Source: Arthrobacter sp. zg-Y919 (GTDB lineage: Bacteria; Actinomycetota; Actinomycetes; Actinomycetales; Micrococcaceae). Taken from it: a stretch of DNA of 64,000 nt. Shown here in pieces: positions 3,999 through 64,000 of the stretch. The stretch lies in the NCBI RefSeq assembly GCF_030142045.1, contig NZ_CP126242.1, forward strand, positions 806,001-870,000. The letters run 5' to 3'. The notes below the pieces were generated by a model. The model was not told where the DNA came from, searched no databases, and worked only from the letters and a program-made list of their open reading frames with translations. The position numbers and the translations under genes were made by a program. Each line of letters starts with the position of its first letter. Positions within the stretch are counted from its first letter, which is position 1.

Positions 3999-4747
3999 CC
4001 GGCCACTGAGCGGACAGCCAGCATGATCGCCGCGTAGTGCGCGGCGAATCCGGCCAGCGTCAGGGCATGGAAGATCTCATGGAAACCGAACCAGTCCACG
4101 GACGGATTGGGTTTCTTCATGGCGTACATCACGGCGCCGGCGATGTACGCCACGCCGCCCACGCAGATAAGGATTGCCGCCGTGGGGTTGGTGCCGTAGA
4201 AATCCGGAATGTAGAACAGGGAAGCGCAGCCCAGGGCGATATAGACGGGGGTGTAGAGCCAGCGGGGCGCGTTCAGCCAGAGCAGCCGGAAGGCGACCCC
4301 GACGAGGGCGCCGGACCAGATGATCCACAGCAGCGTCGAGGCGCTCTCCCGGGGGAGCAGGGACCAGGCAAGCGGGGTATAGGAGCCGGCGATCACCAGC
4401 ATGATGTTGGTGTGGTCCAGGCGCTTAAGTACCCGTTTGACCTTGGGGGACCAGTTGCCGCGGTGGTAGACGGCGCTGGTGCCGAACAACAGCACACCGG
4501 TGAAGGCGTAGATGGCCGAGGCAATCCGGGTGCCGGTGGTCGGGGCCACGGACACGAGGATGATCCCGGCCGCGAGGGCCAGGGGAGTGGCGCCGGCATG
4601 CAGCCAGCCACGCAGGCGCGGCTTGACTTCGAGTTCTTCGGCAATGGCTTCAACGGCGTTTTCAAGGGGGCCGGGCGCGGTCCGGGACTCCGGATCATGC
4701 TGGGCGGGAACACCTGTTGGGCGGGCGGAAAATGGTGACGAATCCAT
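3995..4747 (-). CDS. trhA: PAQR family hemolysin III / TrhA-type membrane protein
   Basis: A 250-residue membrane protein with about seven hydrophobic segments after a 50-residue polar N-terminus. Family markers: SAVYHRG in the first part, [15 protein letters not shown] in the middle, and the terminal [17 protein letters not shown]. These histidines form the presumed metal site of the PAQR/CREST superfamily. Bacterial TrhA has been linked to membrane-energetics homeostasis; the hemolysin name is historical. It is transcribed divergently from uppS across a 183-base spacer in which I could not place a convincing promoter. Confidence 0.9.
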
Positions 4748-4930
4748 AACGGAATTCTAACTTACGATCGGGTAACTTAGCGCGAGGCGGGTCGTTGCCC
4801 CCGCCGGTCGGCGCACCGGCAAGCCGGGCTAGCGGTAGCCTAGGAGAAGATTTTTCTACTTTGGGCAGAGCCGGAGCCTGCGGAACGTTCAGTTGCGTCT
4901 GTCCCGGACCCCAGGCACGTGAGGCAAACA

Positions 4931-5692
4931 ATGAAATTCCCCGGTGTTGTCTACGCCTACTACGAGCGTAAGCTGCGGCGGTCCCTGATTGGAGACCGCA
5001 TCCCCGAACACATCGGGGTAATGGTGGATGGAAACCGGCGGTGGGCCAAACTCGCCGGTGCGCCCACCAGCGACGGGCACCAGGCCGGAGCGGACAAGAT
5101 CCTGGAGTTCCTGGGCTGGTGCCAGGAACTCGGTGTGCGGATGGTGACCCTCTACATGCTCTCCACCGACAACCTGAACCGTGACGCGGACGAGCTGGAA
5201 CCGCTGCTGGACATTATCGGCAACACCCTGGACCGCCTGGGCGAAGAGGGCAACCTGCGGGTCCAGCCGGTGGGGGCCCTGGAGATCCTTCCGTCACGGC
5301 TGGCCAAGCAGCTCACTGAGCTCGGCGACAGCACCGGCGACGCCGACGGGCTGCATGTAAACGTGGCCATCGGCTACGGCGGGCGGCGGGAAATTGTCGA
5401 CGCCGTCAAGGAACTCCTGCGGGACGCTGACGCCGAGGACAAGTCAATCGCGGAAGTAACCGAGGAAATCTCCGACACCAAAATTTCCGAATACCTTTAC
5501 ACCCGCGGCCAGCCGGACCCGGAACTGGTCATCAGGACCTCCGGCGAGCAGCGTCTCTCCGGCTTCCTGATGTGGCAGAGCGCCTACAGCGAGTTCTATT
5601 TCTGCGAAGCACTGTGGCCGGATTTCCGGCGGGTGGACTTCCTGCGGGCCCTGCGTGACTACGCCAACAGGCAGCGGCGCTTCGGTTCCTGA
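4931..5692 (+). CDS. uppS: isoprenyl transferase (cis-prenyl diphosphate synthase)
   Basis: A 253-residue cis-prenyltransferase that condenses isopentenyl diphosphate onto an allylic primer to make the polyprenyl carrier for cell-wall synthesis. The catalytic-aspartate motif VMVDGNRRWAK is at about residues 30-40, and the C-terminal RTSGEQRLSGF and WQSAYSEFYF motifs are intact. ATG 4931 is chosen because GAGG lies six bases upstream; an in-frame GTG at 4919 would place that Shine-Dalgarno inside the gene. Actinobacteria often carry two paralogues (Z-farnesyl and decaprenyl synthases); chain length cannot be read from the sequence. Confidence 0.92.
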   Translation: MKFPGVVYAYYERKLRRSLIGDRIPEHIGVMVDGNRRWAKLAGAPTSDGHQAGADKILEFLGWCQELGVRMVTLYMLSTDNLNRDADELEPLLDIIGNTLDRLGEEGNLRVQPVGALEILPSRLAKQLTELGDSTGDADGLHVNVAIGYGGRREIVDAVKELLRDADAEDKSIAEVTEEISDTKISEYLYTRGQPDPELVIRTSGEQRLSGFLMWQSAYSEFYFCEALWPDFRRVDFLRALRDYANRQRRFGS

Positions 5693-5845
5693 ACCGCCTT
5701 CCCTGTGCGGCCGCCGACGGCCGTGTCCTGCTGCGGAACAGCGGGCCGCGGGCGTACTTTGGTGCTATCGGTCAGCTTAGGTGCCGGCCGAACTGTGTTT
5801 CATCCAGCGACCGGGGCCTTGGGGCGCCCCTGACGGGAGTTCCAC

Positions 5846-7174
5846 ATGGCAGCTGAACAGCAGGAAAATGCAGCGGAATCCGGGAGGTCCAGCTTTGTGC
5901 TGGACACTTCGGTGCTTTTGTCCGATCCCCGGGCGATACTCCGGTTTGCCGAACACGAGGTGATTCTTCCCCTGGTGGTGATTACCGAACTAGAGCGCAA
6001 GCGGCAGGATCCCGAGCTGGGCTATTTCGCGCGGAATGCCCTACGCCTGTTGGATGACCTGCGCGTTCAGCACGGCGGCCTCGGAGCGGCCATTCCCCTG
6101 GGGGACAACGGCGGCACACTGCGGGTGGAGCTGAACCACATCTCCACGGACGTCCTGCCCGCCGGTATCCGGGGAAGCGACAATGACAGCCGGATCCTGG
6201 CCGTCGCCAAGAGCCTGGCCGACGGCGGCCGGAACGTCACCGTGGTGTCCAAGGACCTGCCCATGCGGGTGAAGGCCTCGGCGATGGGGCTGGCCGCGGA
6301 TGAATACCGCAACGAACTGGTCCGGGATTCGGGCTGGACCGGAGTGGCCGAACTGGACATCTCCGACGCGGACATGGCGCTGCTCTACGACCACCAGGCG
6401 CTGTTGATCCCCGAAGCCGCGGAACTTCCCGTCAACACGGGTGCGGTACTGATGGCCGGGCGTGCTTCCGCCCTCGGCCGGGTGGGCGCCGATAAGCGGC
6501 TGCGGCTGGTGCGCGGGGACCGGGACGTCTTTGGGCTGCACGGACGCTCGGCCGAACAGCGGCTGGCCATCGACCTGCTGATGGACCGCGAGGTGGGGAT
6601 AGTCTCGCTGGGCGGACGGGCCGGTACCGGAAAGTCCGCGCTGGCACTGTGTGCCGGGCTGGAAGCGGTACTCGAACGCCGGGAACACCGCAAGGTCATG
6701 GTGTTCCGGCCGCTTTACGCCGTGGGCGGGCAGGAACTCGGCTACCTCCCCGGCACCGAGGCCGAAAAAATGGGGCCCTGGGGGCAGGCGGTCTTCGACA
6801 CCCTGGAGGCGCTCGTCTCACCGGAGGTGGTGGAAGAGGTCCTGGACCGCGGCATGCTCGAGGTGCTGCCCCTGACTCACATCAGGGGGCGCTCCCTCCA
6901 CGACGCGTTCGTGATCGTGGACGAGGCGCAGTCGCTGGAGAAAAACGTCCTGCTCACCGTCCTGTCCCGGATTGGACAGAATTCCAAGGTGGTCCTGACC
7001 CACGACGTCGCCCAACGCGACAACCTGCGGGTGGGCCGGCACGACGGCGTTGCTGCCGTGGTCGAGACGCTCAAGGGCCATCCGTTGTTCGGGCACGTGA
7101 CGCTGACCCGCTCCGAGCGTTCGCCCATCGCGGCACTCGTGACGGAACTCCTGGAGGAAGGACAGATCGGCTAG
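5846..7174 (+). CDS. PhoH family protein with N-terminal PIN domain
   Basis: A 442-residue fusion of a PIN ribonuclease domain (about residues 17-150, opening with [12 protein letters not shown]) and a PhoH-type P-loop ATPase (about 235-442). Walker [10 protein letters not shown] is near residue 256 and Walker [10 protein letters not shown] near 355. This is the PhoH2 architecture; in mycobacteria PhoH2 acts as an RNA helicase/ribonuclease and can be paired with a small antitoxin, PhoAT. I see no convincing antitoxin ORF in the 150 bases upstream. Probably monocistronic or weakly coupled to uppS. Confidence 0.92.
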
Positions 7175-7236
7175 CTTGTCCACAGCACCTGGCCGGTGTT
7201 CCGCGGAGGACTCCCGGGGTCGGTACGGTGGGCCCC

Positions 7237-7770
7237 ATGGTGGAGATCCTGGCGGGTTACTACGGTGCGGGTGCGGCCGGAACGGCGGGTGCTTCCGTCG
7301 CCGCGGTCCTGCTGGGTGCGGCCCTTGCCTGGTTCGCGGCTGTGGGCCTCCGGCTGGCCGTGATCGATATCCGCACCCGGCGGCTGCCCAACGGGCTGGT
7401 CCTGCCCTCCTACCCGGTTGCGGGGGTGCTGCTGGCCGGTGCCGCGCTCGCCGCCGGGGAACCGGACCGGATTGCCGCCATGCTGCTGGGTGCGGCAGGG
7501 CTGTGGGCCGGGTTCTTCGCGCTGAGGCTGGCGAATCCTGCGGGCCTGGGCTTCGGGGACGTGAAGCTTGCCGGACTGCTGGGCCTCTATCTGGGTTTTC
7601 TCGGCGCCGGCCACGTCCTGGCCGGGATGGTGGCGGCGTTTGTTTTCGGCGGCATCGGCGGGGTGGTGCTGATCCTCACCGGCCGCGGCACGGCGTCGTC
7701 GACGGTGGCCTTTGGCCCGTTCCTGCTCCTGGGATCCGCCGTGGCCATGATGGTCCCTGCCCTACAGTAG
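7237..7770 (+). CDS. prepilin peptidase, A24 family (TadV/CpaA-like)
   Basis: A 177-residue polytopic membrane aspartyl protease that would cleave type IV prepilin or Flp-pilin leader peptides. Both catalytic aspartates are present: D44 in VIDIRTRRLPN and D108 in GFGDVKL. The N-terminal methyltransferase domain of PilD is missing, as in the short TadV/CpaA subgroup. The start is uncertain: GGAGGA lies 27 bases before ATG 7237, and an in-frame GTG at 7228 is closer. No pilin or Tad secretion genes occur in this window, so its substrates must be encoded elsewhere. Confidence 0.85.
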   Translation: MVEILAGYYGAGAAGTAGASVAAVLLGAALAWFAAVGLRLAVIDIRTRRLPNGLVLPSYPVAGVLLAGAALAAGEPDRIAAMLLGAAGLWAGFFALRLANPAGLGFGDVKLAGLLGLYLGFLGAGHVLAGMVAAFVFGGIGGVVLILTGRGTASSTVAFGPFLLLGSAVAMMVPALQ

Positions 7771-7774
7771 GAGG

Positions 7775-8245
7775 ATGCCTACCCCAGATTTTGTCCTGTC
7801 CCTGCGCGAACGGATAGGGCACGATCCGCTCTGGCTGCCCGGCGTCACGGCCGTGGTGTTTAACGCCGCGGAGCAGGTCCTGCTGGGCCGGCGGGCGGAT
7901 AACGGACGGTGGGCGCTGATCACCGGCATGCTCGAACCCGGGGAAGAAGCCGGGCCGGGTGCCCTGCGTGAAGTGGAAGAAGAAACCGGCGTCCACGCGG
8001 AGCTTGAACACCTCATCCATGTGGGCGCCCACGGTCCGGTGACCTTTCCGAACGGCGACGTGTGCTCCTTCCTGAACCTCGCCTTCAGCTGCCGGTATCT
8101 CTCCGGTTCCGCGCGGGTGAACGACGACGAATCCACCAAGGTGGGCTGGTACGCCCTGGATGACCTGCCGCCGCTGAGCGACCGGCACCGCATGCTGATT
8201 GACCTGGCCCGCACGGCGACCGGTGTTCCCGTCTTCGAGCGCTGA
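7775..8245 (+). CDS. Nudix hydrolase
   Basis: A 156-residue Nudix hydrolase with an intact Nudix box between G51 and V73 (GMLEPGEE, then REVEEETGV). It hydrolyses a nucleoside diphosphate linked to another moiety; the substrate cannot be predicted. Five bases separate it from the prepilin peptidase stop, and AGGAGG abuts the ATG, giving an unusually short spacing. It ends just before a strong hairpin terminator shared with the convergent MFS gene. Confidence 0.9.
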   Translation: MPTPDFVLSLRERIGHDPLWLPGVTAVVFNAAEQVLLGRRADNGRWALITGMLEPGEEAGPGALREVEEETGVHAELEHLIHVGAHGPVTFPNGDVCSFLNLAFSCRYLSGSARVNDDESTKVGWYALDDLPPLSDRHRMLIDLARTATGVPVFER

Positions 8246-8266
8246 GCCACTGACAACCCAAACAGG

Positions 8267-8300
8267 AAAGGGCCGCCCCGCAGCAGCGGGACGGCCCTTT
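8267..8300. terminator. bidirectional Rho-independent terminator
   Basis: Two 15-base arms (8267-8281 and 8286-8300) pair with a single mismatch around the loop AGCA. The left arm begins AAAGGG and the right arm ends CCCTTT, so a short U-run follows the stem on either strand. It sits between the convergent Nudix and MFS genes. Confidence 0.8.
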
Positions 8301-8325
8301 CGCCGGTTAATGCAAAACGAATCCG

Positions 8326-10793
<2,468 letters not shown>

Positions 10794-10850
10794 CAGAGTG
10801 CAAATTGTGCCCGGGGATGTGTCGGGCGCGCCGGACGCACGGGGCAGAGC

Positions 10851-10882
10851 AAAGGAGCGCCCGGATGTCCGGACGCTCCTTT
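10851..10882. terminator. hairpin terminator beyond fumC
   Basis: Two 15-base arms (10851-10865, 10868-10882) pair with one mismatch around a two-base centre. The arms start AAAGGAGC and end GCTCCTTT, giving U-tracts in both directions. A second GC-rich stem (10895-10902 with 10919-10926) lies closer to the fumC stop. Together they would stop fumC transcription before the tetR promoter region. Confidence 0.7.
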
Positions 10883-10933
10883 GGCTGAAATGAACCGCCC
10901 CGGCTGTGGCTGATACCCGCCGGGGCCGGGGTA

Positions 10934-12355
10934 CTAGGCCTGCGGCGGCTTCGTCATCGACAGGACGTCCAGTGCCTTGTCCAGCTGCTCCACGGTCAGC
11001 TCACCGCGTTCCAGATAGCCGAGATCCTCGACGGCCTGGCGGATGGTTTTGCCTTCCTTGACCGAGTACTTGGCGATCTTCGCCGCGTTTTCGTAGCCGA
11101 TGAACTTGTTCAGCGGAGTCACGATGGACGGGGAGGCTTCGGCCAGGTAGCGGGCGCGCTCCACATTGGCCTCGATGCCGTCGATCATCTTGTCCGCCAT
11201 CACGACGGAGGAATTGGCCAGGAGGCGGATGGACTCCAGCAGGTTCGCGGCGATCACCGGGATACCCACGTTGAGTTCGAAGTAGCCGAAGGTTCCGGCC
11301 CAGGCCACGGCGGCGTCGTTACCCACCACCTGGGCGGCAACCTGGAGGACGGCCTCGGAGATGACGGGGTTGACCTTGCCCGGCATGATCGAGGAGCCCG
11401 GCTGCAGATCGGGGATGGCAATCTCGCCCAGGCCCGTGTTGGGGCCGGAGCCCATCCAACGCAGGTCATTGGCGATCTTGGAGAAGGAGACGGCGATGGT
11501 GCGGAGCATGCCGGAAACCTCGACCAGCGCATCGCGGTTGGCCTGGGCCTCGAAGTGGTCGCGGGCCTCGGTCAGCGGCAGCCCGGTGTCGGCCGCCAGC
11601 AGCTCGATCACGCGCTGCGGGAAGCCTGCAGGGGTGTTGATGCCGGTGCCGACGGCGGTGCCGCCCAGCGGAACCTCTGCCACGCGGGGGAGCGAGGCGT
11701 TGACCCGCTCGATGCCGTAGCGGACCTGGGCAGCGTAGCCGCCGAATTCCTGGCCGAGCGTGACCGGGGTGGCATCCATCAGATGGGTACGGCCGGACTT
11801 GACGACGTCCTTGAACTCCTCGGCCTTGCGCTCCAGGGACCCGGCAAGGTGTTCCAGGGCGGGGATCAGCTTGTTGATCAGTGCGGACGTGGCTGCAACG
11901 TGAACCGACGTCGGAAAGACATCATTGGAGGACTGCGAAGCGTTGACGTGGTCGTTGGGGTGGACAGTTGTCTCGCTGCCGGCGTCCTTCAGTGCCCGGG
12001 TGGCCAGCTCGGCCAGGACCTCGTTGGTGTTCATATTCGAGGAGGTGCCGGAACCGGTCTGGAAAATATCGATCGGGAACTGGTCGTTGTACGTGCCGCC
12101 GGCCACGGCATCGGCCGCTTTTTCAATGGCCCGGGCGCGCTCTTCGTCGAGCACCCCCAGTTCGGCGTTGGCGGTCGCTGCGGCCTTCTTGATCCGGGCG
12201 AGCGCTTCGATGTGCGAGGGTTCCAGCGTGGTGCCGGAAATGGGGAAGTTCTCGACCGCGCGCTGTGTCTGGGCGCGGTAGAGTGCGGAGGCCGGAACGC
12301 GGACCTCACCCATGGTGTCGTGTTCGATGCGGTATTCGGGGGTGTCGGAAGTCAT
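10934..12355 (-). CDS. fumC: class II fumarate hydratase
   Basis: A 473-residue iron-independent fumarase interconverting fumarate and malate in the TCA cycle. The superfamily signature [11 protein letters not shown] is at about residue 317, and upstream [15 protein letters not shown] and [15 protein letters not shown] motifs complete the composite active site of the homotetramer. Full length for the family. It is the last gene of a DUF4245-carbonic anhydrase-fumC run with gaps of 45 and 41 bases, so probably one operon. Argininosuccinate lyase and aspartase share the fold, but the motif set fits fumarase. Confidence 0.95.
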
Positions 12356-12396
12356 GCTCCCCAGCCTAATCTCCGAACGCGCCGCAGTGATAACCG

Positions 12397-49871: not shown

Positions 49872-51764
49872 TTGGCACACCTGCTTGGTGCTGAAAACCT
49901 CAGCATTTCCTTTGGCACGCGCACCATCCTCGACGGGGTTTCCCTGGGCCTGGAAGAGGGGGACCGCATTGGCGTCGTCGGCCGCAACGGCGACGGCAAG
50001 TCCACCCTGATGCGCCTGCTGGCCGAACGGCAGACGCCCGATGAGGGCCGGGTCACCCGCCGCCGCGACGTCACCGTTGGCTATCTGGACCAGTCCGACG
50101 TGCTCGACGGCGACCTCACCGTCGGCGAAGCGATCGTCGGTGACGCCGCAGACTACGAGTGGGCTTCCAACGCCCGGATCCGCGACGTGATGAGCGGGCT
50201 GATCCAGGAAGTGGACTGGAACGCCCGGGTTTCCTCGCTCTCCGGCGGGCAGAAGCGCCGTGTGGCACTGGCCAAGCTCCTGACCGGCGACGACGACGTC
50301 GTCATGTTGGACGAGCCCACCAACCACCTGGACGTGGAAGGCGTTGCGTGGCTCGCCAAGCACCTGAAGACCCGCTGGCGCTCAGATGCCGGCGGCCTGC
50401 TCGTGGTTACCCACGACCGGTGGTTCCTGGACGAAATCTGCACCCGCACGTGGGAAGTCCACGACGCGGTGATTGACCCGTTCGACGGCGGCTACGCAGC
50501 GTACGTGCTGGCCCGCGCCGAGCGCGACCGCATGGCCGGCGTCATCGAGGGCAAGCGCCAGCAGCTCGTGAAGAAGGAACTGGCCTGGCTGCGCCGCGGT
50601 GCCCCGGCCCGCACCGCGAAGCCCAAGTTCCGCATCGAGGCCGCGAACAACCTGATTGCCGACGTACCCGAACCGCGCGACACCCTCTCACTGAACAAGA
50701 TGGCCACTGCGCGCCTGGGCAAAGATGTGCTTGACCTCGAGGAAGTGTCGCTGACCCTGGGCGACACCGAACTCTTCAAGAACATCACCCTGCGCCTGGC
50801 ACCCGGTGAGCGGCTCGGCCTGGTCGGCGTCAACGGTGCCGGCAAGACCACCCTGCTGCGCCTGCTCAACGGCGAAATCGAGCCCACCAAGGGTCGGCTG
50901 AAGCGCGGCACGACCGTGCAGACCGCCGTGCTCACCCAGGAGGTCAAGGAGCTCGACGAGGTCGCGGACCTGCGCGTCATCGAGGTCATCGAAAACGAGA
51001 AGCGCGTCTTCAGCGTCGGCGGCAAGGAGGTTTCAGCCGGGCAGCTCGTGGAGCAGCTGGGCTTCAACCAGCAGCGCCAGTGGACTCCGGTCCGTGAGCT
51101 CTCCGGCGGTGAGCGCCGCCGGCTGCAGCTGCTGCGCCTGCTCGTGGGCGAACCCAACGTGCTGATGCTCGATGAGCCCACCAATGACCTGGACACGGAC
51201 ACCCTTGCCGCGGTCGAGGACGTGCTGGACGGCTGGCCCGGAACCCTCGTGGTGGTCTCGCACGACCGGTACCTGCTCGAGCGCGTCACCGACCACCAGA
51301 TGGCACTGCTCGGCGACGGCAAGCTGCGCGGCCTGCCCGGCGGCGTGGACCAGTACCTGGAACTGCGTAACGAAGCGCTGGCCGCCAACTCTTCCGCGTC
51401 GACTGCAGCGCGGGGCTCCTCGCAGGCGGCCCGTGCGGCTGCGGCAGGGTCCTCCCGTCCCGGCGGTTCCTCCGCCTTCACTGCACCCTCCGGCGGCGGA
51501 ACGGCGACGGCGCTGGCCGGTTCGGGTGCTTCGGAAGCCGAGAAGCGGGCCGCGAAGAAGGACCTGACCCGGATCGAACGCCAGCTGAGCAAGCTCACCG
51601 CGCAGGCCGAGAAGATCAACGCCCAGATGAATGAGGCGACGCAGAAGTCCGGCGGCGCCGACTTTGAACTGATCGGCGAGCTCAACGCCAAGCTGCAGGC
51701 CGTCGCGGCCGAGCAGGAGGGCCTCGAAATGCAGTGGCTGGAGGCGTCGGAGATCCTCGAATAG
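49872..51764 (+). CDS. ABC-F family ATP-binding protein
   Basis: A 630-residue soluble twin-ABC protein without membrane segments. First cassette: GRNGDGKST near residue 37, LSGGQKRR, MLDEPTNHLD. Second: GVNGAGKTT near 319, LSGGERRR, MLDEPTNDLD. The inter-domain linker is charged, and the C-terminus, after a Ser/Ala/Gly-rich spacer, ends in a coiled coil of about 70 residues. ABC-F proteins act on the ribosome as translation factors or antibiotic-protection proteins; which applies here is unknown. TTG start six bases after ispE. Confidence 0.92.
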   Translation: MAHLLGAENLSISFGTRTILDGVSLGLEEGDRIGVVGRNGDGKSTLMRLLAERQTPDEGRVTRRRDVTVGYLDQSDVLDGDLTVGEAIVGDAADYEWASNARIRDVMSGLIQEVDWNARVSSLSGGQKRRVALAKLLTGDDDVVMLDEPTNHLDVEGVAWLAKHLKTRWRSDAGGLLVVTHDRWFLDEICTRTWEVHDAVIDPFDGGYAAYVLARAERDRMAGVIEGKRQQLVKKELAWLRRGAPARTAKPKFRIEAANNLIADVPEPRDTLSLNKMATARLGKDVLDLEEVSLTLGDTELFKNITLRLAPGERLGLVGVNGAGKTTLLRLLNGEIEPTKGRLKRGTTVQTAVLTQEVKELDEVADLRVIEVIENEKRVFSVGGKEVSAGQLVEQLGFNQQRQWTPVRELSGGERRRLQLLRLLVGEPNVLMLDEPTNDLDTDTLAAVEDVLDGWPGTLVVVSHDRYLLERVTDHQMALLGDGKLRGLPGGVDQYLELRNEALAANSSASTAARGSSQAARAAAAGSSRPGGSSAFTAPSGGGTATALAGSGASEAEKRAAKKDLTRIERQLSKLTAQAEKINAQMNEATQKSGGADFELIGELNAKLQAVAAEQEGLEMQWLEASEILE

Positions 51765-51854: not shown

Positions 51855-52928
51855 CTAGCCCAGCAGGCGCGGCAGGAGGTACTCGCTAAGCAGCGGGGAC
51901 AGGTCGGTGCGTTCCGCCGCGTCCGCAGGTGCGGCCCAGAGGATTTCCTCGATCTCCGCAGCCGCGGCCGGGGGAGCGCTGCCTGCGGGCAGGGTCCAGC
52001 CAAACAGGCCCGCGTCTATGGAGGTGTTTTCCTCGTTCGCGGCCGGTCCGTACCAGCTGCCCAGGTCTTCAAGATCCTCTGCGGCAACCGCCAGTCCAAG
52101 TTCTTCGCGTACCTCCCGGACGGCGGCCTGCACGAAGGTCTCCCCGGGCTCCAGTTTTCCGCCAGGCTGCATAAAGCGCGAGGTTCCGCGTTTGCGCACC
52201 AGCAGGATGCGGCCGGCGTCGTCCCTGACCAGGACCGCCGAAAGCCGAAGGACGGCGGTGCCGTCACCGCCGGCGCGGGCGCCGTCCAGGTCAGGCGGCA
52301 TATGGGAAAGCCGGGGATCCTTTTGCAGGCCCGCGAGGCCGTTCCAGGACAGGTTCACCAGATGCGCAGCCACGGCGGCCTTGTCCGGGGAGCGGGTATC
52401 CAGCCACCACTGGCCGGTCATGGCAACCATGCCCACCAGCATCTGCGCGTACATGCCACCCACCTCGGCGCTCAGGCCGCGGCTGCCGAACTCCTTGGAC
52501 AGGATGTGTTCCACGTGCCGGGTGATCGTGGACAGCAGGGTGGAGAATGTTCCCTCCGGCTGCGACGGCGGCGCGTCCCGGGTGAGGATCCGGAAACCGT
52601 CGGTGTGTTTTTCGATGTAGTCCAGCAGGGCGTAGGCCGCACGTTCCAGCAGGACCCGGGGACCGGCGTCGGCGCTGAGGGACTCGGTCATCACGTCCAG
52701 CAGGCGGCGGAACTCAATGTCCACCACCTCGGTGTACAGGCCCTCTTTGGAACCGAAGTGTTCGTAGACCACCGGTTTGGAGACGCCTGCCGCGGCCGCA
52801 ATGTCCTCGATGGTGGCGCCGTCCAGTCCGCGCAGGGCAAAGAGCCCGCGTGCCACTTCGATCAGCTGGGCGCGCCGCTGGACGCCGGTCATGCGCAGGC
52901 GCGTTCCGCCGGCGGGAGTCTTTACCAC
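51855..52928 (-). CDS. TetR regulator fused to a C-terminal Nudix hydrolase domain
   Basis: One open frame of 357 residues encodes two domains. Residues 17-205 are a TetR regulator: HTH at 39-58 ([20 protein letters not shown]), then a helical ligand-binding domain. After a Gly/Ala linker (about 212-224), residues 225-357 form a Nudix domain with an intact box: G257, E263, R271-E272, E275-E276 and G278. There is no stop or frameshift at the junction. The combination suggests a regulator that binds or hydrolyses a nucleotide-type ligand, unlike NrtR, where Nudix precedes a winged helix. GTG 52928 or ATG 52892 may be the start. It is divergent from tRNA-Gln/glmU and probably autoregulated. Confidence 0.88.
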
Positions 52929-53167: not shown

Positions 53168-53239
53168 ATCCGCCCTGGTGTAATGGCAGCACCCCGGCCT
53201 TTGGAGCCGTGGAGTATAGGTTCGAATCCTATGGGCGGA
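53168..53239 (+). tRNA. tRNA-Gln (anticodon TTG)
   Basis: The acceptor arms TCCGCCC and GGGCGGA pair perfectly, the T-arm reads ATAGG-TTCGAAT-CCTAT, and the anticodon loop CTTTGGA carries TTG. The D-arm GTGT/AGCAC is short, as usual for tRNA-Gln, and the anticodon stem has one end mismatch (C/T). The 3' CCA is not encoded. It lies just upstream of glmU. Confidence 0.93.
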
Positions 53240-53315
53240 ACGCTATGCAGTGTGCCTGTGAAAGGCTGCCGCGCAGCAGATATACCCCGGCCGGACCACT
53301 AAGGAGCGCCATTTC

Positions 53316-54848
53316 GTGACCACCAACGATGCCCGATCCAGCGGAAACCCTCCGGGCAGTTTGTCGGCGGTGATCGTCCTTGCCGCCGGGGCCGGTACAC
53401 GAATGAAGTCCCGGACCCCGAAAATCCTGCACCCCGTGGGCGGCATTTCGATGCTCGGCCATGCCCTCGCCGCGGCACAGGAGCTGCACCCCCGCTTCCT
53501 GGCGGTTGTCGTGCGGCACGAACGCGACATGGTGGCGGCACACGCCGCCGCACATGCGCCGGCCGCCGTCATCGTTGACCAGGACGAGATCCCCGGCACG
53601 GGCCGCGCGGTCCAGGTGGCGCTCTCGCAGCTGGACGCCGCCGCCGGGCTGGAAGGCACCGTCGTAGTGACCTACGGGGACGCCCCGCTCCTCGAAGCCC
53701 AGACACTGCGCAACCTGGTCGCGGTGCATGAAACGGACGGCAACGCCGTAACGGTCCTCACCGCCCGGCTGGCGGATCCCACCGGCTACGGACGCGTGCT
53801 GAGGGCGGAAGACGGCACGGTCACCGGCATCGTCGAGCACAAGGACGCCACCGACGAGCAGCGCGCCGTTCGCGAAATCAACTCCGGCATCTACGCCTTC
53901 GACGCCGCAGTCCTGCGCAGCGCGCTGGCATCGGTGACCACCTCCAACTCGCAGGGAGAGATGTACCTGACCGATGTCCTGGGCATCGCCCGCTCAGCCG
54001 GCGGCCGCATCAGCGCCGTTGCCACTGACGACACATGGCAGGTGGAAGGCGCTAACGACCGCGTCCAGCTCGCCGCCCTCAATGCCGAACACAACCGCCG
54101 CAATCTGGATAAATGGATGCGGGCCGGCGTGACCGTTGTGGATCCGGCCACGACCTGGATCGACTCGACCGTGACCCTGGCCGAAGACGTCACCATCCTG
54201 CCCGGCACCCAGCTGCATGGCGCCACGACCATCGCCCGGGACGCCGTCGTCGGACCGGACACCACGTTGACGGACGTGTCCGTAGGGGAGGGGGCAAGCG
54301 TGGTCCGGACCCACGGCAGCAATGCCGTCCTTGGCGCCGGCAGCAGCGTGGGGCCCTTCGCCTACCTGCGTCCGGGAACCGTACTGGGTGCGGACGGAAA
54401 AATCGGCACCTTCGTGGAAACCAAGAACGCCAACATCGGCGCCGGGTCCAAGGTTCCCCACCTTTCCTATGTGGGGGATGCCACAATCGGCGAGCAGTCC
54501 AACATCGGTGCCGCGTCCGTCTTCGTGAACTACGACGGCGTGAACAAGCACCATACGACCATCGGGTCCCACGTACGCATGGGCAGCGACAACATGTATG
54601 TAGCCCCCGTCACGGTAGGCGACGGCGCGTACAGTGGAGCTGGAACGGTGGTCCGCAAGGACGTCCCGGCCGGCTCCCTGGCCATCAACGTGGCGCCCCA
54701 GCGCAACCTCGACGGCTGGGTGCTGACCAACCGTCCGGGCACCGCGGCAGCCGACGCGGCGGCCGCGGCCAACGCTTCCGCTACGGCCACTGATTCCACA
54801 ACCTCTTCCGCCGATACTGATTCCCCCACGCGAGAAAGCGATCATTAA
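53316..54848 (+). CDS. glmU: bifunctional UDP-N-acetylglucosamine pyrophosphorylase / glucosamine-1-phosphate N-acetyltransferase
   Basis: A 510-residue bifunctional enzyme making UDP-GlcNAc for peptidoglycan and glycopolymers. The N-terminal uridylyltransferase has LAAGAGTRM at residues 22-30 followed by KILHPVGG; the C-terminal half is a left-handed beta-helix of hexapeptide repeats with the acetyltransferase segment HLSYVGDATIGEQSNIGA. The last 35 residues are a low-complexity Ala/Ser/Thr tail. Its TAA overlaps the prs start (TAATG), so the two are translationally coupled. Confidence 0.96.
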   Translation: MTTNDARSSGNPPGSLSAVIVLAAGAGTRMKSRTPKILHPVGGISMLGHALAAAQELHPRFLAVVVRHERDMVAAHAAAHAPAAVIVDQDEIPGTGRAVQVALSQLDAAAGLEGTVVVTYGDAPLLEAQTLRNLVAVHETDGNAVTVLTARLADPTGYGRVLRAEDGTVTGIVEHKDATDEQRAVREINSGIYAFDAAVLRSALASVTTSNSQGEMYLTDVLGIARSAGGRISAVATDDTWQVEGANDRVQLAALNAEHNRRNLDKWMRAGVTVVDPATTWIDSTVTLAEDVTILPGTQLHGATTIARDAVVGPDTTLTDVSVGEGASVVRTHGSNAVLGAGSSVGPFAYLRPGTVLGADGKIGTFVETKNANIGAGSKVPHLSYVGDATIGEQSNIGAASVFVNYDGVNKHHTTIGSHVRMGSDNMYVAPVTVGDGAYSGAGTVVRKDVPAGSLAINVAPQRNLDGWVLTNRPGTAAADAAAAANASATATDSTTSSADTDSPTRESDH

Positions 54849-57341: not shown

Positions 57342-57677
57342 CTCTTTGGCCTAGGTATCAGCGGGGCAGAATGGAGTAGTTTTCCAGCGTCCCGAATAGC
57401 GGGGAAGCATTGTTTCGGTTCCGTTACCCGGCCTAAAATGGAGCCAGCCTGAAGGGCTCCCAAAGCGGGGCCGACGTCGGGAGGCCTCCGAGACTGGGCC
57501 ACCCCCATCCCGGCGTCGGTCCCTTATTCTGTTCCCGCGACCAGCCGCTCCCTCCTGCATCTAGACGCTGCCCCGGGCCGGGCGTATGCTCCAGTCCACC
57601 GAGCAGTTGCTACCAAAAGCAGCCGGTGTCCGGAACCCGGATCCGGTGCGGGCGTTGTGGGGGGCGTGGGCTGGCTG
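57342..57677. promoter_or_regulatory. spacer between pth and the LuxR array with candidate promoter and terminator
   Basis: A gene-free stretch of about 335 bases. A possible promoter is TTGTTT (57410-57415) and TAAAAT (57434-57439) with an 18-base gap. Downstream, 57469-57481 pairs with 57509-57522 (13 bp including one G-U and one bulged base), enclosing a GGCC/GGCC stem and followed by TTATT, which may be a terminator or an attenuator for the array. Weak evidence for each element. Confidence 0.4.
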
Positions 57678-60284
57678 ATGAAAAGTGCGTTGAGCGTAGC
57701 TGAGCTTGTAGGGCGTGCAGAAATCATTGATGAGCTCTGCTCCGCACTCGCCGGCGGCGGCGCAGGCGCAGTGATCCTCGGACGTTCCGGAGTGGGCAAG
57801 ACCGCGGTGCTCAACGCCGTGGCGGGCCGCCTCCAGGCCGACTTTCACATCGTCCCGGTGCGGGGCACCGCCATTGCCGCCGAGACACCTTATGGAGCCT
57901 TGGCCTACCTGATCAGCGGACTGCCTGAAGACGCGGCACACAATCCTGTGAAGCTGCTGCAGGACCTTAGCCGCTCCTTCGTGGCGCGGGCCGGGGGAAA
58001 GCGTGTCCTGGTGGCGGTGGACAACGCGGACCGGCTGGACCGGTTCACCATCATGGCCTTGTCCCAGTTGCTGCGGCGCGGGACCGTCGCCGTGGTGGCG
58101 GCTGCTTCCGTCCATTGGGAAGCCGACCCCGAACTGGTGCGCCTGTGGAGCGAAGGGCTGCTGGCGAGGGTTGATCTCGCGCTCCTCACCGAGCGGCAGA
58201 CCCGCCAGCTGATGCAGCAGATACTGGGCGCGGCGGTCTCCGGGCTTGCGGCGGCCACTATGTGGCAGGAAACCGAGGGCAGCCCGCGGTTAATCCGGCT
58301 CATGACCAACGTCCAGGTCCACTCCGGAACGTTGGTCCGCAGGGAATCCACCTGGGTCCGCACGGCCCCCTTCACCCGCACCGGTGAGGTCAGTGAAGTC
58401 GTGGACACAGTTCTGGCCCGGCTGGACGCCCCTGAACGGCAGCTGGTGGAAGTCCTGGCGCTGTGCATCACCCTTCCCCTGCCCCGGGCCCTGGAACTGG
58501 TCCCGGCCGCGGCCCTTGATGCCCTCGAGGAGCAGCAGGTGATCTCCGTGGCCGGCAACCCGCCGCGGGTCCGGCTAAGCGGCGGAACCCCGGGGTCAGT
58601 CATAGCGGCGAGCATGGCACCGGGACGGAGGAGGGAACTGTGGGAGGACATGTCGCCCCGGATGGACCCCGCCGGGCTGGAAGCAGAGGAACTCACCGCC
58701 TACGTGGGCTGGGCCCTGTGCTGCGGTGAGGAGCCCGGCCCGTCCGTGGCCCTCCGCGCGGCGCGTGCGGCCAACGAACGGGCGGATGGGGCCGCCGCCC
58801 TCCGGTTTGTCCGCGCGGTGCCCGTCGGGACGCGCAGCCAGGAGCTGGTCTGTGAAGAGGTCCGTGCCCTGCACGGCGCCGGGAAGCTGGCGGAAGCACT
58901 CGCCGCCTTCAAACAGATCGAACCGCGGCTGTCCCCTCAGGAGCGGGCGGGCTACGTGCCCCTGCAGCTGCTGCACAGCCAGACGCTTGCCCGTGTGCCG
59001 GGAGCCGGTGACCCTTTGGAGCCGCTGCTGGCAGTGGAGGGATCCCGCCCGGCGGAAGGGGACCAGCCGGAGCTGGCTGCGGCCCTGATCCTGGCGCACA
59101 GCAGGCTCGCCGCTGACGGGGGCCGTGTCCGGGAGGTTCCGGACGAACTCTTCGGCCTGTCCGGGAAAGCGGAGCTGAAACCCTCCACCCGGATACATGC
59201 CGCCGCGCTGTCGGCGAATATCCTGGCCCTGTCCGGGCGGACAAGCGAAGCGCTGGATATTCTCGCGCAGCTGGGGGCGCCCAAGGATTATGCCCTCGGT
59301 CCCGGGAACGCCACGGAAGTCTGCACCCGCATCTTCGATACCTATGTCCTTTCGGGCGAGCTCGACCGGGCAGCGGATTTCGTCAAAGCCTTCGACAAGA
59401 CCGGAATCCGGCCTTCCTATGCGGGCAGCGCCGGTGAACTGGCGGTGGCGGTCCTGGCCGCCTGGCAGGGGCAGGACGGTGCCGCCCGGGAAGCACTTAC
59501 CGGCGGCATGGGGCAGCTCAGGGTCCACGATCCGCACGATATGCTCCCACTTGCCCGCACCCTGTCTGCCTACCTCAACCGGGAGCGGCACGCTGAATCC
59601 GGCGAAAGCCTGAACCAGGCACACAACGCGAAGCAAAACTCCGGCTACTTCCGGGGATTCCTGATCCGCTATTTCGCTCTCCAGGCCGGGAACAACGATG
59701 CCGGGCTCCGCTGCAGGCGGCTCCGCGAGGAAGCCGGGTCCGCCCAGGCTGCAGGTTACGCGGCGCCGGCGCTCCATTTCCTGGCGGCAGCCGTCCAGTC
59801 GGGGGACCGGCAGGCGGCCGCGGACCTCCTCGCGGCAGCGGACGACGCCGGCGGAAGGTTCGGTTCCCTGGTGTCGGACTTCGCCGCCGGCGTCCTCCAC
59901 GATGATCCTTCCCTGCTCGTAAACGCCGCACAGGGTTTCCGGAACCTTGGACAGCACCTGTTGTGCCGTAGCGCCGCCCACGCGGCGGAGGAAAGCGCGG
60001 TGCACGGCAGTCCGGGGGAGCGCAGGGCACTGGCGAGGTCTGCCCGCGCCCTGGCAAACGCCAGTCTGCGGTCAATGCAGCACGTCGGCGGACGGGCGGA
60101 AACTCTGGCCGGATTGAGCGCATTCGAGGCGGATCTTGCGCACCGGGCCGTCACGCTGGCCACCACCACGCAGATCGCCGGGGAGTTGAACCTATCGCCC
60201 CGAACCATCGAGTGGCACCTGGGAAAGATCTTTGCGAAGCTCCACGTCTCCGGGCGTTCCGAACTTGCCGAGATCCTGGCCTAG
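57678..60284 (+). CDS. large LuxR family ATPase regulator (LAL/STAND type), first of three
   Basis: An 868-residue signal-transduction ATPase. Walker A GRSGVGKT at residues 35-42, a Walker B-like LVAVDNADRLD near 115 in which Asn replaces the second acidic residue, a long helical TPR-like middle, and a C-terminal HTH (last 60 residues: QIAGELNLSPRTIEWHLGKIFAKL). The usual LuxR lead-in LTxRExEV is degenerate (LSAFEADLAHRAV). The frame opens at GTG 57657; ATG 57678 is my choice, but no clear ribosome-binding site supports either. The next regulator begins 22 bases downstream. The inducer is unknown. Confidence 0.88.
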   Translation: MKSALSVAELVGRAEIIDELCSALAGGGAGAVILGRSGVGKTAVLNAVAGRLQADFHIVPVRGTAIAAETPYGALAYLISGLPEDAAHNPVKLLQDLSRSFVARAGGKRVLVAVDNADRLDRFTIMALSQLLRRGTVAVVAAASVHWEADPELVRLWSEGLLARVDLALLTERQTRQLMQQILGAAVSGLAAATMWQETEGSPRLIRLMTNVQVHSGTLVRRESTWVRTAPFTRTGEVSEVVDTVLARLDAPERQLVEVLALCITLPLPRALELVPAAALDALEEQQVISVAGNPPRVRLSGGTPGSVIAASMAPGRRRELWEDMSPRMDPAGLEAEELTAYVGWALCCGEEPGPSVALRAARAANERADGAAALRFVRAVPVGTRSQELVCEEVRALHGAGKLAEALAAFKQIEPRLSPQERAGYVPLQLLHSQTLARVPGAGDPLEPLLAVEGSRPAEGDQPELAAALILAHSRLAADGGRVREVPDELFGLSGKAELKPSTRIHAAALSANILALSGRTSEALDILAQLGAPKDYALGPGNATEVCTRIFDTYVLSGELDRAADFVKAFDKTGIRPSYAGSAGELAVAVLAAWQGQDGAAREALTGGMGQLRVHDPHDMLPLARTLSAYLNRERHAESGESLNQAHNAKQNSGYFRGFLIRYFALQAGNNDAGLRCRRLREEAGSAQAAGYAAPALHFLAAAVQSGDRQAAADLLAAADDAGGRFGSLVSDFAAGVLHDDPSLLVNAAQGFRNLGQHLLCRSAAHAAEESAVHGSPGERRALARSARALANASLRSMQHVGGRAETLAGLSAFEADLAHRAVTLATTTQIAGELNLSPRTIEWHLGKIFAKLHVSGRSELAEILA

Positions 60285-60306
60285 GAACAGAAGGGCAGGG
60301 GAAGGG

Positions 60307-63006
60307 ATGTACGGGTTGAACCCGAGGTCGCTGGCAGGCAGGGACACCATGCTTGTCGCCGTGCTCGAGAGCCTCCGCCGGCCACCCGGGCACGGGGCCG
60401 TCATCGCTGCGGAAGCCGGGATGGGCAAGACTGCGGTGGCTACGGCTGCCGTGCAGGAACTGCAGGGCCCCGTGTACTGGGTCTACTCAAGCCCGGCACT
60501 GAAGTCCGTACCGTACGGTGCGCTCGCAGCACTCCTGCCAGACCTCGCTCCGGGGCAGACCGGGTCTTCGCTGGCAGTGATGCGGGCGCTCATGGCGCGG
60601 TTCTTTCCGACGTCGCCGCCAGGGGGAGCACCCGCTTTCCAGCCGGGCCGGGAACCCCTGGTCGTCGTCGACGACGCGCACGACATCGACGGGTATAGCC
60701 TCGACCTCCTCGCCCAGCTCCTTGATGCCCGGTACATCAGGCTTCTTGTCCTCACCCAGGCGTTCGCGGACATTTCCGGCATCCTTCCGCACATGTGGGA
60801 CGGGCAGCTGACCCGCCACCGGCTGCGGGCCCTGGCCGAACCGGAAGTCCTGCAGCTGTGCGAGCAGGAGCTTCAGGGGCAGGTCAGCACTACAGCCGCC
60901 GTCGAGTTGACCCGCCTGACCGGGGGGAACCCGATGTACCTGCTCGCGCTGATTGACGAGTCGGTCCGCAGCGGCTTCCTGGTTCAGCGGCACGGAGTCT
61001 GGGTAACGACCGAGAGCGAGCCTCCGGTGGGCGGGAGGGTCGGAGACCTCGTCAAGGCGCAGGTAAGGAGCCTCGGCCCCGCAGACCGCACAGCGATGGA
61101 GACAATCTGCCTTGCCGAACCGCTGCCCCTGCGGTCGGCTTTCCGGCTCGGCCTGCACGCCTCGGTGGACCGTCTCACGGAGGCCCTCCTTGTGGTGGTT
61201 TCAGGAGACCACGACGGCGGACAAACGCTGCGGCCCCTGCATCCCATCTATGGGGAAGTGGTCCGGTGGATGGTCCCGGCAGCGCGGAGCGCGCGTCTCC
61301 TGAAAGAACTGGAAAGCGTTCCGGCAGGGATGGGCCTGGGGGAGGAGGGGGTGCTCCGCCGGGTTTCCTGGTCGCTGGCACTGGGGGCGCCGGTCCCCGG
61401 GCGAGAGCTGCTGCGCGCGGCCGAAAGCGCAAACAACCGCTCGGATCCGCGGCTGGCCCTCCGGGCCGCTGCCGCAGTGGGGAGCGGCGAACTGCGGATC
61501 TGCGCACGGGTACAGGAGTCCCGCGCGTTGCTGCTGCTGGGTGAGACTGCCGCCGCAGCGGAAGCCCTGGAGGGGGTGCTTGAGCAGGCGCCGGATCTGC
61601 GCACCGTGAAACAGGCAATGATGGTTCATATCCAGCTGGCGTTGCAGTCGGCGGCGGCATCCGGGTGGGCGGTTCCCCTGGCACAGCGGTGGAACCGGGA
61701 AATTGACCGCCTTTCCGGACGCGAATCCTCCGACTCCGAGGAACGTGCCCGGGGCGGCGCGCAGATGCTCGATCTGCTCGGCCGGATCAGGAAAGGCGAG
61801 TATGCCCACACCGAACTGGAACTCGCGGAGCTCCTCCGCAGTGCCCGTGCGGGTGGCCACACAGAGGCGGTCGTCATGGCCGAGGCCATGATGGCCGAAG
61901 TCCTGGTGGCAACCGGTCGCGCCCAATCAGCGCTCGGACATAGTACGGCCGCCATGGAACTGCTGCGGGAAGGTACTTCCGGGTCCCGGCTCTTTGGTCC
62001 GTTTGTCCTGCACCGGCACCTCACGGTCCTGACGTGGCTGGGGGAATGGGAGCAGCTGCAGCAGTGCGTCGCCTCTGCGGATTCCCCCGACCAACGCACG
62101 CTGTTGCATTCCGGCGGCTTCGCAGACTTCTCCGTGGGGATTGGCCACCTGCGCGCCGGGTCCCTGGAAGATGCCGTAAAGGACTTTTGTGCAGCGGCCG
62201 AAGCAGCTGCGATCAATGATCCTGAAGGTATTCTCCCGCTGTCCCTGGCACTTGGCTCCTTTGCCGCAGGCAGCCTGGGCCACCGGGACCTCGCTTCGCG
62301 GCTGCTTGAAACCGCAGAGCGGACAGCCCCGCGGGGAGCCGAGCATTACCAGCTGCTGGCCGAAGGCATCCTGGCCGGTGGAAGGCTCGCCCGGAATTCA
62401 GACGATGCTGCCCTGCACGAACTGCGGAACGCGGCCGCCGCCGCGCAGGAGCGGTCATTCACCGCCACGGAATTCACCCTGCGCCATTTCGCGATGCGCA
62501 TGGGTGATTTCTCCGATGCCGGGCGGCTGTTGAAGGTAACAGAAGGATTCGAAGGTCCGCAGGCGCCCGCGTTGAACCGGGTGGCGCGCGCCGTCGTCGA
62601 CCAGGACAGTGCGGCGCTGGTGGCGCTGGCCTCGGACCCGGACCCGGAACTGGACCCGCAGCTGGCACGCCAGTGCCTGCTTGAAGCCCAGCGCCTTGCC
62701 CGCAGGAATGATGACCGTGTACTGCTGAACCGGATACAACGGCTGCTGGGGCGGAACGGCGGCGGCAGCCGCGGTGCGCTTCCCCAGCTGACCCGGCGGG
62801 AACGCGACGTCGCGGCGCTGGTAGCGGCCGGACAGCGCAACGCCGACATTGCCAAGGCATTGAAACTCTCCGTCCGGACCGTGGAAGGCCACATCTACCG
62901 GATCTACGAAAAGCTCGGGATCAGCCGCCGGGATGAACTGAAAGCCCGGTTCCCCCTGCTGGACCACCCCTCCGGCGGCTGGAGCCGACCGTTGCCGGCC
63001 GAGTAA
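60307..63006 (+). CDS. large LuxR family ATPase regulator, second of three
   Basis: An 899-residue paralogue. Walker A AEAGMGKT at 35-42 (allowed A-x4-GKT form), canonical Walker B LVVVDDAHDID near 120, the STAND-type LTGGNPMYLLALI further on, a long TPR-like region and a canonical C-terminal LuxR HTH at about 827-885 (LTRRERDVAALVAAG, then LSVRTVEGHIYRIYEKLG). ATG 60307 follows the purine-rich AGGGGAAGGG; the frame opens at 60232 inside the previous gene. Co-transcription with the first gene is likely. It has the most intact motifs of the set. Confidence 0.9.
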   Translation: MYGLNPRSLAGRDTMLVAVLESLRRPPGHGAVIAAEAGMGKTAVATAAVQELQGPVYWVYSSPALKSVPYGALAALLPDLAPGQTGSSLAVMRALMARFFPTSPPGGAPAFQPGREPLVVVDDAHDIDGYSLDLLAQLLDARYIRLLVLTQAFADISGILPHMWDGQLTRHRLRALAEPEVLQLCEQELQGQVSTTAAVELTRLTGGNPMYLLALIDESVRSGFLVQRHGVWVTTESEPPVGGRVGDLVKAQVRSLGPADRTAMETICLAEPLPLRSAFRLGLHASVDRLTEALLVVVSGDHDGGQTLRPLHPIYGEVVRWMVPAARSARLLKELESVPAGMGLGEEGVLRRVSWSLALGAPVPGRELLRAAESANNRSDPRLALRAAAAVGSGELRICARVQESRALLLLGETAAAAEALEGVLEQAPDLRTVKQAMMVHIQLALQSAAASGWAVPLAQRWNREIDRLSGRESSDSEERARGGAQMLDLLGRIRKGEYAHTELELAELLRSARAGGHTEAVVMAEAMMAEVLVATGRAQSALGHSTAAMELLREGTSGSRLFGPFVLHRHLTVLTWLGEWEQLQQCVASADSPDQRTLLHSGGFADFSVGIGHLRAGSLEDAVKDFCAAAEAAAINDPEGILPLSLALGSFAAGSLGHRDLASRLLETAERTAPRGAEHYQLLAEGILAGGRLARNSDDAALHELRNAAAAAQERSFTATEFTLRHFAMRMGDFSDAGRLLKVTEGFEGPQAPALNRVARAVVDQDSAALVALASDPDPELDPQLARQCLLEAQRLARRNDDRVLLNRIQRLLGRNGGGSRGALPQLTRRERDVAALVAAGQRNADIAKALKLSVRTVEGHIYRIYEKLGISRRDELKARFPLLDHPSGGWSRPLPAE

Positions 63007-63368: not shown

Positions 63369-64000
63369 ATGGAAGTTGCCGGACGCCCACTGCACCGTGA
63401 AGACAGCCGCCCCGAAGACAGCCGGAACCCCGGTAACGAAGCCGGTTTCCGTCCGGGCGTCCCTGTGCTGGCCCAGATGAAGTATGCCGCGGCCCGTGCA
63501 ATTGAAGCACTCTCGGAAGGCAAGAGTGTTGTGGTCACGGGGGCACCGGGAACAGGTAAATCCACTGTTATGGCCGGCGTCCTGGCCGGCCTGGGCAGTG
63601 GTTATTCGGTGCTGCAGCTTCGCGGAGCAGCATCGTGGTCCGGCAGGCCGTTCGACGGACTGCTCTGGCTGTTGAGCGAGCTTCCGCCCGAGTCCCTCTC
63701 GGATCCGGTCTATGTCCTCCAATACGTCCGGAGCGTGTTCCGGGAAAGGGCGACCGGTCGCACGCTGGTTCTTGCCGTGGAGAACATAGAGGATCTGGAT
63801 GGGGCAACCACTGCCGTCCTCCTTCAACTGTGCAGGGCGGGTTCGGCGCTCATCCTGTGCACCGTCCGGGACCTGTCCGCCTGCACCGGGGAATTCGTCC
63901 GGTGGTGGGCCGAAGACGGGGTGCATAAGGAGAGTCTCGAGGCGCTGCGTCCCAGTGGAACCCGCGCCTTGCTGGAGGGGTTGGCAGGAGGAGCGGTTTC
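63369..64000 (+). CDS. P-loop ATPase regulator, third of three (5' part only)
   Basis: The N-terminal 210 residues of a protein cut by the window edge; the frame stays open to base 64000. It has an Asp/Arg-rich 35-residue start, Walker A GAPGTGKST at residues 58-66, and LVLAVENIEDLDGATTAVL, a Walker B-like strand with Glu-Asn where Asp-Asp is expected. Layout and position suggest a third LAL-type LuxR regulator, but the HTH lies outside the window. ATG 63369 has GGAGGA eight bases upstream. Confidence 0.8.
   Translation, partial: MEVAGRPLHREDSRPEDSRNPGNEAGFRPGVPVLAQMKYAAARAIEALSEGKSVVVTGAPGTGKSTVMAGVLAGLGSGYSVLQLRGAASWSGRPFDGLLWLLSELPPESLSDPVYVLQYVRSVFRERATGRTLVLAVENIEDLDGATTAVLLQLCRAGSALILCTVRDLSACTGEFVRWWAEDGVHKESLEALRPSGTRALLEGLAGGAV

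Follow-up and report, generated by a model that had tools for sequence, protein, structure and literature searches.

What is gained when one gene encodes both a transcriptional repressor and a nucleotide hydrolase? The question is raised by a gene of Arthrobacter sp. zg-Y919 at positions 51855-52928, minus strand, of the window analysed here, a stretch of 64,000 nucleotides (NCBI RefSeq assembly GCF_030142045.1, contig NZ_CP126242.1, positions 806,001 to 870,000). The gene is one open reading frame of 357 amino acids with a GTG start; an earlier look at the DNA without database searches (the sequence-only reading) had given its coordinates, strand and frame correctly and had proposed that it joins a TetR regulator to a Nudix hydrolase. 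Our comparisons with relatives indicate that this fusion arose apparently once, linking an ancient, widely conserved switch to an intact Nudix enzyme. It ties a little-studied, widely conserved actinobacterial regulator of the Rv1019 type to a nucleotide hydrolase, and a two-domain protein from a soil genus would make what this regulator senses directly testable.

Two known families in one polypeptide

All Pfam matches of the protein exceed their gathering scores, and no other domain was seen. The gene and its parts are as follows.

51855..52928, minus strand: TetR-Nudix fusion gene, 357 amino acids, GTG start
52725..52865, minus strand: TetR_N (PF00440), residues 22-68 (Pfam 59.3 bits, cut-off 24)
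52326..52685, minus strand: TetR ligand-binding/dimerisation domain, residues ~82-201 (TetR_C_46, 35.2 bits, and TetR_C_32, 30.4 bits; cut-off 27 for each)
52257..52307, minus strand: flexible, variable linker, residues ~208-224 (low predicted local distance difference test score; 9-40 residues long in 29 genomes)
51858..52256, minus strand: Nudix hydrolase domain, residues 225-357 (Pfam NUDIX match at residues 231-342, 60 bits)
52092..52160, minus strand: Nudix box, residues 257-279
52044..52046, minus strand: Pro295, 16 residues past the box and likely part of the specificity (X) loop
52935..52940, minus strand: TAGACT, a -10-like element 6 nucleotides upstream of the GTG, from sequence

The AlphaFold model consists of two confident domains with a low-confidence linker between them. 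The ligand domain of the TetR half is all-helical in this model and matches that of FasR, and the C-terminal half has the Nudix fold. As the sequence-only reading had listed them, G257, E263, R271, E272, E275, E276 and G278 fit the consensus G-x5-E-x7-R-E-U-x-E-E-x-G-U exactly. None of the best 60 of 224 chains in a PDB sequence search matched both halves. No description of a TetR-Nudix protein was found in the literature searched, which mostly excluded subscription journals; as far as that literature goes, the two families are known but their combination in one protein is new. One member of the group, P0019, already carries the automatic label AcrR regulator/MutT.

One parallel is the NrtR/AraR group, in which a Nudix fold and a DNA-binding domain also share one polypeptide. 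There, according to the available part of PMC4666351, the Nudix domain is N-terminal and is followed by a C-terminal winged helix, whereas the protein studied here begins with a TetR region that has its own ligand domain and ends with a Nudix domain whose box is intact. The order is thus opposite to that of NrtR, as had been said at the outset, and the NrtR arrangement is not found in this protein. One could imagine that the Nudix half acts here as a second sensor that binds a nucleotide and modulates DNA binding by TetR, with catalysis secondary. Parts of the same source (PMC4666351) lend this some plausibility, since the NrtR family shows that a Nudix fold can gate a DNA-binding domain and BtAraR, a member of that family, lacks the catalytic residues. 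However, the catalytic core is invariant rather than decayed in the proteins we compared, the TetR half keeps a ligand domain of its own, and NrtR places its DNA-binding domain at the other end and builds it on another fold, so we regard such a role as highly improbable.

The fusion is kept throughout the genus

The fused frame is open in all 29 genomes of the genus examined, which bears out the proposed single polypeptide and excludes an assembly artefact. The query gave a single match in 28 of these genomes and two matched segments in the remaining one (G014), where they lie in one frame of 388 amino acids with a longer linker. Among the best 120 of 7993 database proteins listed, both halves are present in 38 clusters (P0001-P0038); the entries of these that carry an organism name are Arthrobacter. 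The sequence-only reading had held that separate genes in relatives, together with a stop or frameshift at the joint, would speak against a true fusion. Half of this holds: in other genera the two genes do stand apart, yet the joint is free of stops and frameshifts in all 29 genomes.

The core of the Nudix box, through the last E-E, is intact in every genus genome (29/29) and every database fusion (38/38), and the complete box including its G-U end in 28/29 and 37/38, respectively. Median ratios of nonsynonymous to synonymous substitution rates (dN/dS) were 0.05 for the helix-turn-helix region, 0.10 for the ligand domain and 0.20 for the Nudix domain; these are rough values, with dS near 1, taken from 351-404 of 406 pairs with dS between 0.05 and 1.5, and the linker yielded no value. 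Both halves therefore look to be under purifying selection.

Two candidate departures from this picture were rejected. Short Arthrobacter NUDIX entries (P0202-P0212 and P0217) might have pointed to a split gene in relatives; 11 of the 12 match open fused loci at 97.5-100% (P0202, P0203, P0207 and P0208 match theirs at 100% and come from contigs of equal length) and P0211 matches at 88%, and the most plausible reading is that they are truncated calls, begun at a start within the linker. P0039, which retains the end of the TetR half, is read as a fragment. A conserved internal start giving a free Nudix protein was likewise discarded as a general feature: a Met stands near the joint in 19/29 genomes and other codons in 10/29, and single species may differ.

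The TetR half is probably an Rv1019 orthologue

Across the class, 161 of 246 genomes gave a match to the TetR half (E<=1e-25), with 52-65% identity in most of the matches listed. In the Micrococcaceae it was found in 35/149 genomes, which belong to 8/32 genera (E<=1e-30). The DNA-recognition region of TetR_N is conserved in fused and stand-alone proteins alike, and the fused TetR halves form one group in a tree from which L242 (in-frame stop), L060 (a copy of L240), and L166-L168 and L046 (long or divergent frames) were left out. FasR is the closest solved structure. The protein is not itself FasR, as it scores 93.6 bits against the NCBIfam equivalog cut-off of 330; by inference, a second protein of the zg-Y919 genome, which matches the query at 26%, would be the better FasR candidate.

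The genes flanking the fusion, whose names other than that of the tRNA (like those of further window genes) are the ones we take them to have, are these.

53169..53241, plus strand: tRNA-Gln(TTG), divergent from the fusion
53316..54848, plus strand: glmU, divergent neighbour, followed in conserved order by prs, rplY and pth
49872..51764, plus strand: ABC-F-type ATPase gene, convergent with the fusion

The divergent position beside tRNA-Gln and glmU-prs, which had been pointed out before, is real and common. TetR and glmU are both present at 71 of 127 loci searched, a count that includes the fused loci and some genomes fetched twice. At 58 of these 71 the two genes are divergent with starts less than 1.6 kb apart, at 9 they are divergent but farther from each other, and at 4 they lie on the same strand. 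This adjacency is not universal: for most Streptomyces loci the fetched stretch yielded no glmU, and at L169 and L170 glmU lies ~9 kb off on the same strand.

Family f22 supplies five neighbourhoods (L164-L168). In each of them the TetR gene has glmU-prs diverging from it and mfd-mazG behind it, and in four of the five rplY and pth are likewise in order. We take this to be the gene order of Rv1014c-Rv1021 in H37Rv. As the f22 proteins share 56-59% identity with our TetR half and their gene order agrees with that of H37Rv, the TetR half is, judged by similarity and synteny with f22 as proxy, a probable orthologue of mycobacterial Rv1019. The original paper on Rv1019 is reportedly that of Pushparajan, 2020. 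Like the TetR genes of the f22 loci, the fusion gene has glmU-prs divergent from it; unlike those loci, where no Nudix domain was seen and mfd and mazG follow the TetR gene, it carries a Nudix domain, and in Arthrobacter sp. zg-Y919 mfd and mazG are ~39 and 73 kb away.

MazG is another nucleotide pyrophosphohydrolase. That the regulator precedes mfd and mazG in mycobacteria-like genomes suggests that it may sense damaged nucleotides or a signal of nucleotide type. L164-L168 were the only loci with a MazG match next to the TetR gene, so that the parallel rests on this one family; inspection by eye of 25 loci did not bear out a nucleotide hydrolase gene downstream of TetR in other lineages. According to the available part of the review PMC9579286, mfd is under negative control of Rv1019, and overexpressing Rv1019 reduces survival of oxidative stress. 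Rv1019 is reported to repress mfd-mazG. The accessible part of PMC4482099 lists a motif upstream of Rv1019 at 1.9E-17, in the less significant class, with its letters not printed. As a separate observation made by eye, a MarR-like gene lies 3' of the Rv1019-type TetR gene at L040, L043, L169, L170, L173 and L176.

The Nudix half has stand-alone relatives and possible substrates

In the Micrococcaceae, including the genus itself, the Nudix half was matched in 111/149 genomes (E<=1e-20), once in each except G361, which has two copies. The unfused MutT-like proteins belong to the same subfamily as the fused half; they differ from it in that they are usually sited elsewhere and are not joined to this TetR. 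None of the copies outside the genus stands beside this TetR in the 20 fetched stretches, 12 of which have a UvrD/PcrA-type gene and 8 a SucC-type gene near the Nudix copy. At L222 (6346-8185), from another sister genus, the Nudix gene is divergent from a ROK-family repressor, beside an ABC exporter and near pcrA/sucC, and at L216 (genus g8) the copy at 6324-6704 is convergent beside an AAA-LuxR-like regulator at 3321-6146.

Comparison with named enzymes did not assign the domain to any of them, as none of the best 25 of 30 NCBIfam hits reached its cut-off: MutT scored 35.3 bits against 97.9, and the models that we take to be NudG and NudB scored 29.1 against 156 and 27.1 against 103. A possible clue is Pro295, since in ADP-ribose diphosphatases a proline stands exactly 16 residues past the box. 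The position is proline in 29/29 fused proteins and in 91/108 listed stand-alones (P0213-P0320). According to the available part of PMC5389931, a proline is common among ADP-ribose diphosphatases in the loop that follows the box. Pro295 is only a lead toward such an activity, because it is also present in most stand-alone proteins and is absent from the three other TetR-Nudix proteins (P0154, P0157 and P0175). A substrate from the GlmU pathway is also conceivable, by analogy, because a pneumococcal Nudix enzyme is reported to cleave UDP-X peptidoglycan precursors (PMC3655063, available in part).

Precorrin methyltransferase-like (PF00590) and LOG-like (PF03641) proteins are further fusion partners of this Nudix subfamily (P0121, P0122, P0125, P0134 and others), the named fusions being mostly actinobacterial. 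By eye, ~20 precorrin methyltransferase-like and ~13 LOG-like fusions are found among the 120 listed rows.

A probable single origin of the fusion

Stand-alone TetR relatives mostly end within ~15 residues after the sequence matching LQKDPxL, which is where the linker of the fused protein starts. At L062, a locus with TetR only, ~30 bases separate the TetR match from the start of the ABC-F match; in the fusion, the space between the ABC-F gene and the end of TetR is taken up by the Nudix half. Among 32 family neighbourhoods fetched (L038, L056-L069, L177 and L235-L250), at least two pairs of which come from the same genome, none gave a Nudix match at its TetR locus.

In a tree of the 29 fused Nudix halves, 28 sister-genus loci from Nudix matches and 7 named proteins, the fused halves form one group (support 92/68), the sister of which consists of stand-alone copies from genus g8 (joint branch 95/96). 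The five g8 genomes yielded no TetR orthologue, their best matches having 24-27% identity over the length. The g8 Nudix gene is divergent from glmU in four of the five, at 0.4, 9.1, 14 and 37 kb; G035, the remaining genome, lacks a Nudix match at E<=1e-20. In G325 (Arthrobacter mobilis), in which the search likewise turned up no TetR orthologue, the Nudix gene lies directly beside tRNA-Gln/glmU, which is the site of the fusion. The simplest story would be an ancestor with a tandem or fused TetR-Nudix pair, kept fused here and reduced to Nudix in g8, although the order of events may have been the reverse.

The pairing has also appeared elsewhere. P0154 and P0157 (TetR_C_14) and P0175 (TetR_C_33) have TetR first and a Nudix half of the same subfamily, with 47-48% identity over that half. 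Because their TetR ligand domains are of other types than in the Arthrobacter fusion, P0154/P0157 and P0175 can be classed from sequence as independent fusions.

Could the merger be without regulatory meaning, neighbouring genes having lost a stop codon between them while both halves kept their separate jobs? The joint at the C-terminus of TetR with a Met nearby in 19/29 genomes, the variable linker, the other partners of this Nudix subfamily and the occurrence of both halves apart elsewhere would all agree with this. Yet the gene is retained unsplit in 29/29 genus genomes although TetR is so often missing in the family, and the internal start codon is not conserved. On this evidence we judge a mere merger improbable.

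A proposed repressor with a tethered hydrolase

We consider it somewhat probable that the protein is a repressor of its own gene that carries an active hydrolase on a tether, its DNA binding, autoregulation, catalysis and dimeric state all being predicted. A single fusion in the genus ancestor, or slightly earlier, would have linked a TetR regulator of the Rv1019 type with a MutT-like Nudix hydrolase whose gene lay immediately downstream. The resulting protein would be a bifunctional dimer: the TetR half would bind DNA near its own promoter and repress its own gene, possibly also its neighbours, and the Nudix half, held by a flexible tether, would act as a pyrophosphohydrolase. With enzyme and repressor in one chain, the likeliest effect would be dosage coupling, in which the supply of hydrolase tracks the autoregulation of the repressor. 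As the TAGACT element stands six bases ahead of the GTG, the message is suggested to be leaderless, and TA.ACT before the GTG is invariant across the 29 fused genomes.

Several points weigh against this reading. A first look for an operator repeat covered ~100 bases before the GTG of nine genomes; in the search of ~290 bases in all 29 genomes that followed, no inverted repeat with identical arms, perfect or with one mismatch, was common upstream of the GTG to more than 5/29, although such a search would miss diverged arms; a repeat overlapping the start of the coding sequence is present in 9/29, which are near relatives. This search thus found no widely shared operator palindrome. Autoregulation is customary in the TetR family, and as no such palindrome was found, our case for it draws on this habit and on the reports on Rv1019. 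So far glmU and prs are not supported as the targets that the sequence-only reading had put forward as possible; Rv1019, the best-studied probable orthologue, is reported to control mfd-mazG, which lies far from the fusion here. Moreover, TetR is dispensable within the Micrococcaceae, the fused Nudix group is moderately supported (68 in the SH-aLRT, the Shimodaira-Hasegawa-like approximate likelihood ratio test), and the Nudix subfamily fuses freely with many unrelated partners, so that being fused does little by itself to prove that the halves are functionally linked.

A tighter connection would exist if the ligand in the TetR pocket were a nucleotide-linked metabolite and the Nudix domain acted either on this metabolite or on its precursor; induction would then raise the level of the very enzyme clearing the signal. 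The shared polypeptide kept genus-wide (29/29) is what one would expect of such a system, as is the recurrence of the pairing in P0154, P0157 and P0175. FasR, moreover, was solved with C20-CoA. An acyl-CoA is formally a nucleotide pyrophosphate. Against this, the Nudix gene persists in 4/5 g8 genomes that have no TetR match above 27% identity, which indicates that the enzyme does not need this repressor; the earlier proposal that TetR ligand and Nudix substrate are the same is so far unsupported. In other genera TetR persists without this Nudix at its locus. The unconserved linker length (9-40 residues) counts against rigid allosteric coupling, not against a shared ligand. We think such a sensor of its own substrate unlikely on balance. 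Its fuller version, a one-protein feedback device whose repressor senses a nucleotide-linked signal, whose induction makes more of the C-terminal enzyme destroying that signal, and whose enzyme subfamily was recruited at least three times onto different TetR types, seems rather unlikely. The interpretation given in the sequence-only reading is partly supported, and a repressor that sets the dosage of its attached hydrolase is the reading we retain.

Other genes of the window

Directly after pth lie five consecutive, co-oriented genes for regulators of 738-965 amino acids that combine an AAA/STAND-type ATPase with a LuxR-type (GerE) domain. This AAA-LuxR run was located at window positions 57657-60284, 60232-63006 and 63369-64000, and at L051 positions 6743-9640 and 9637-12390.
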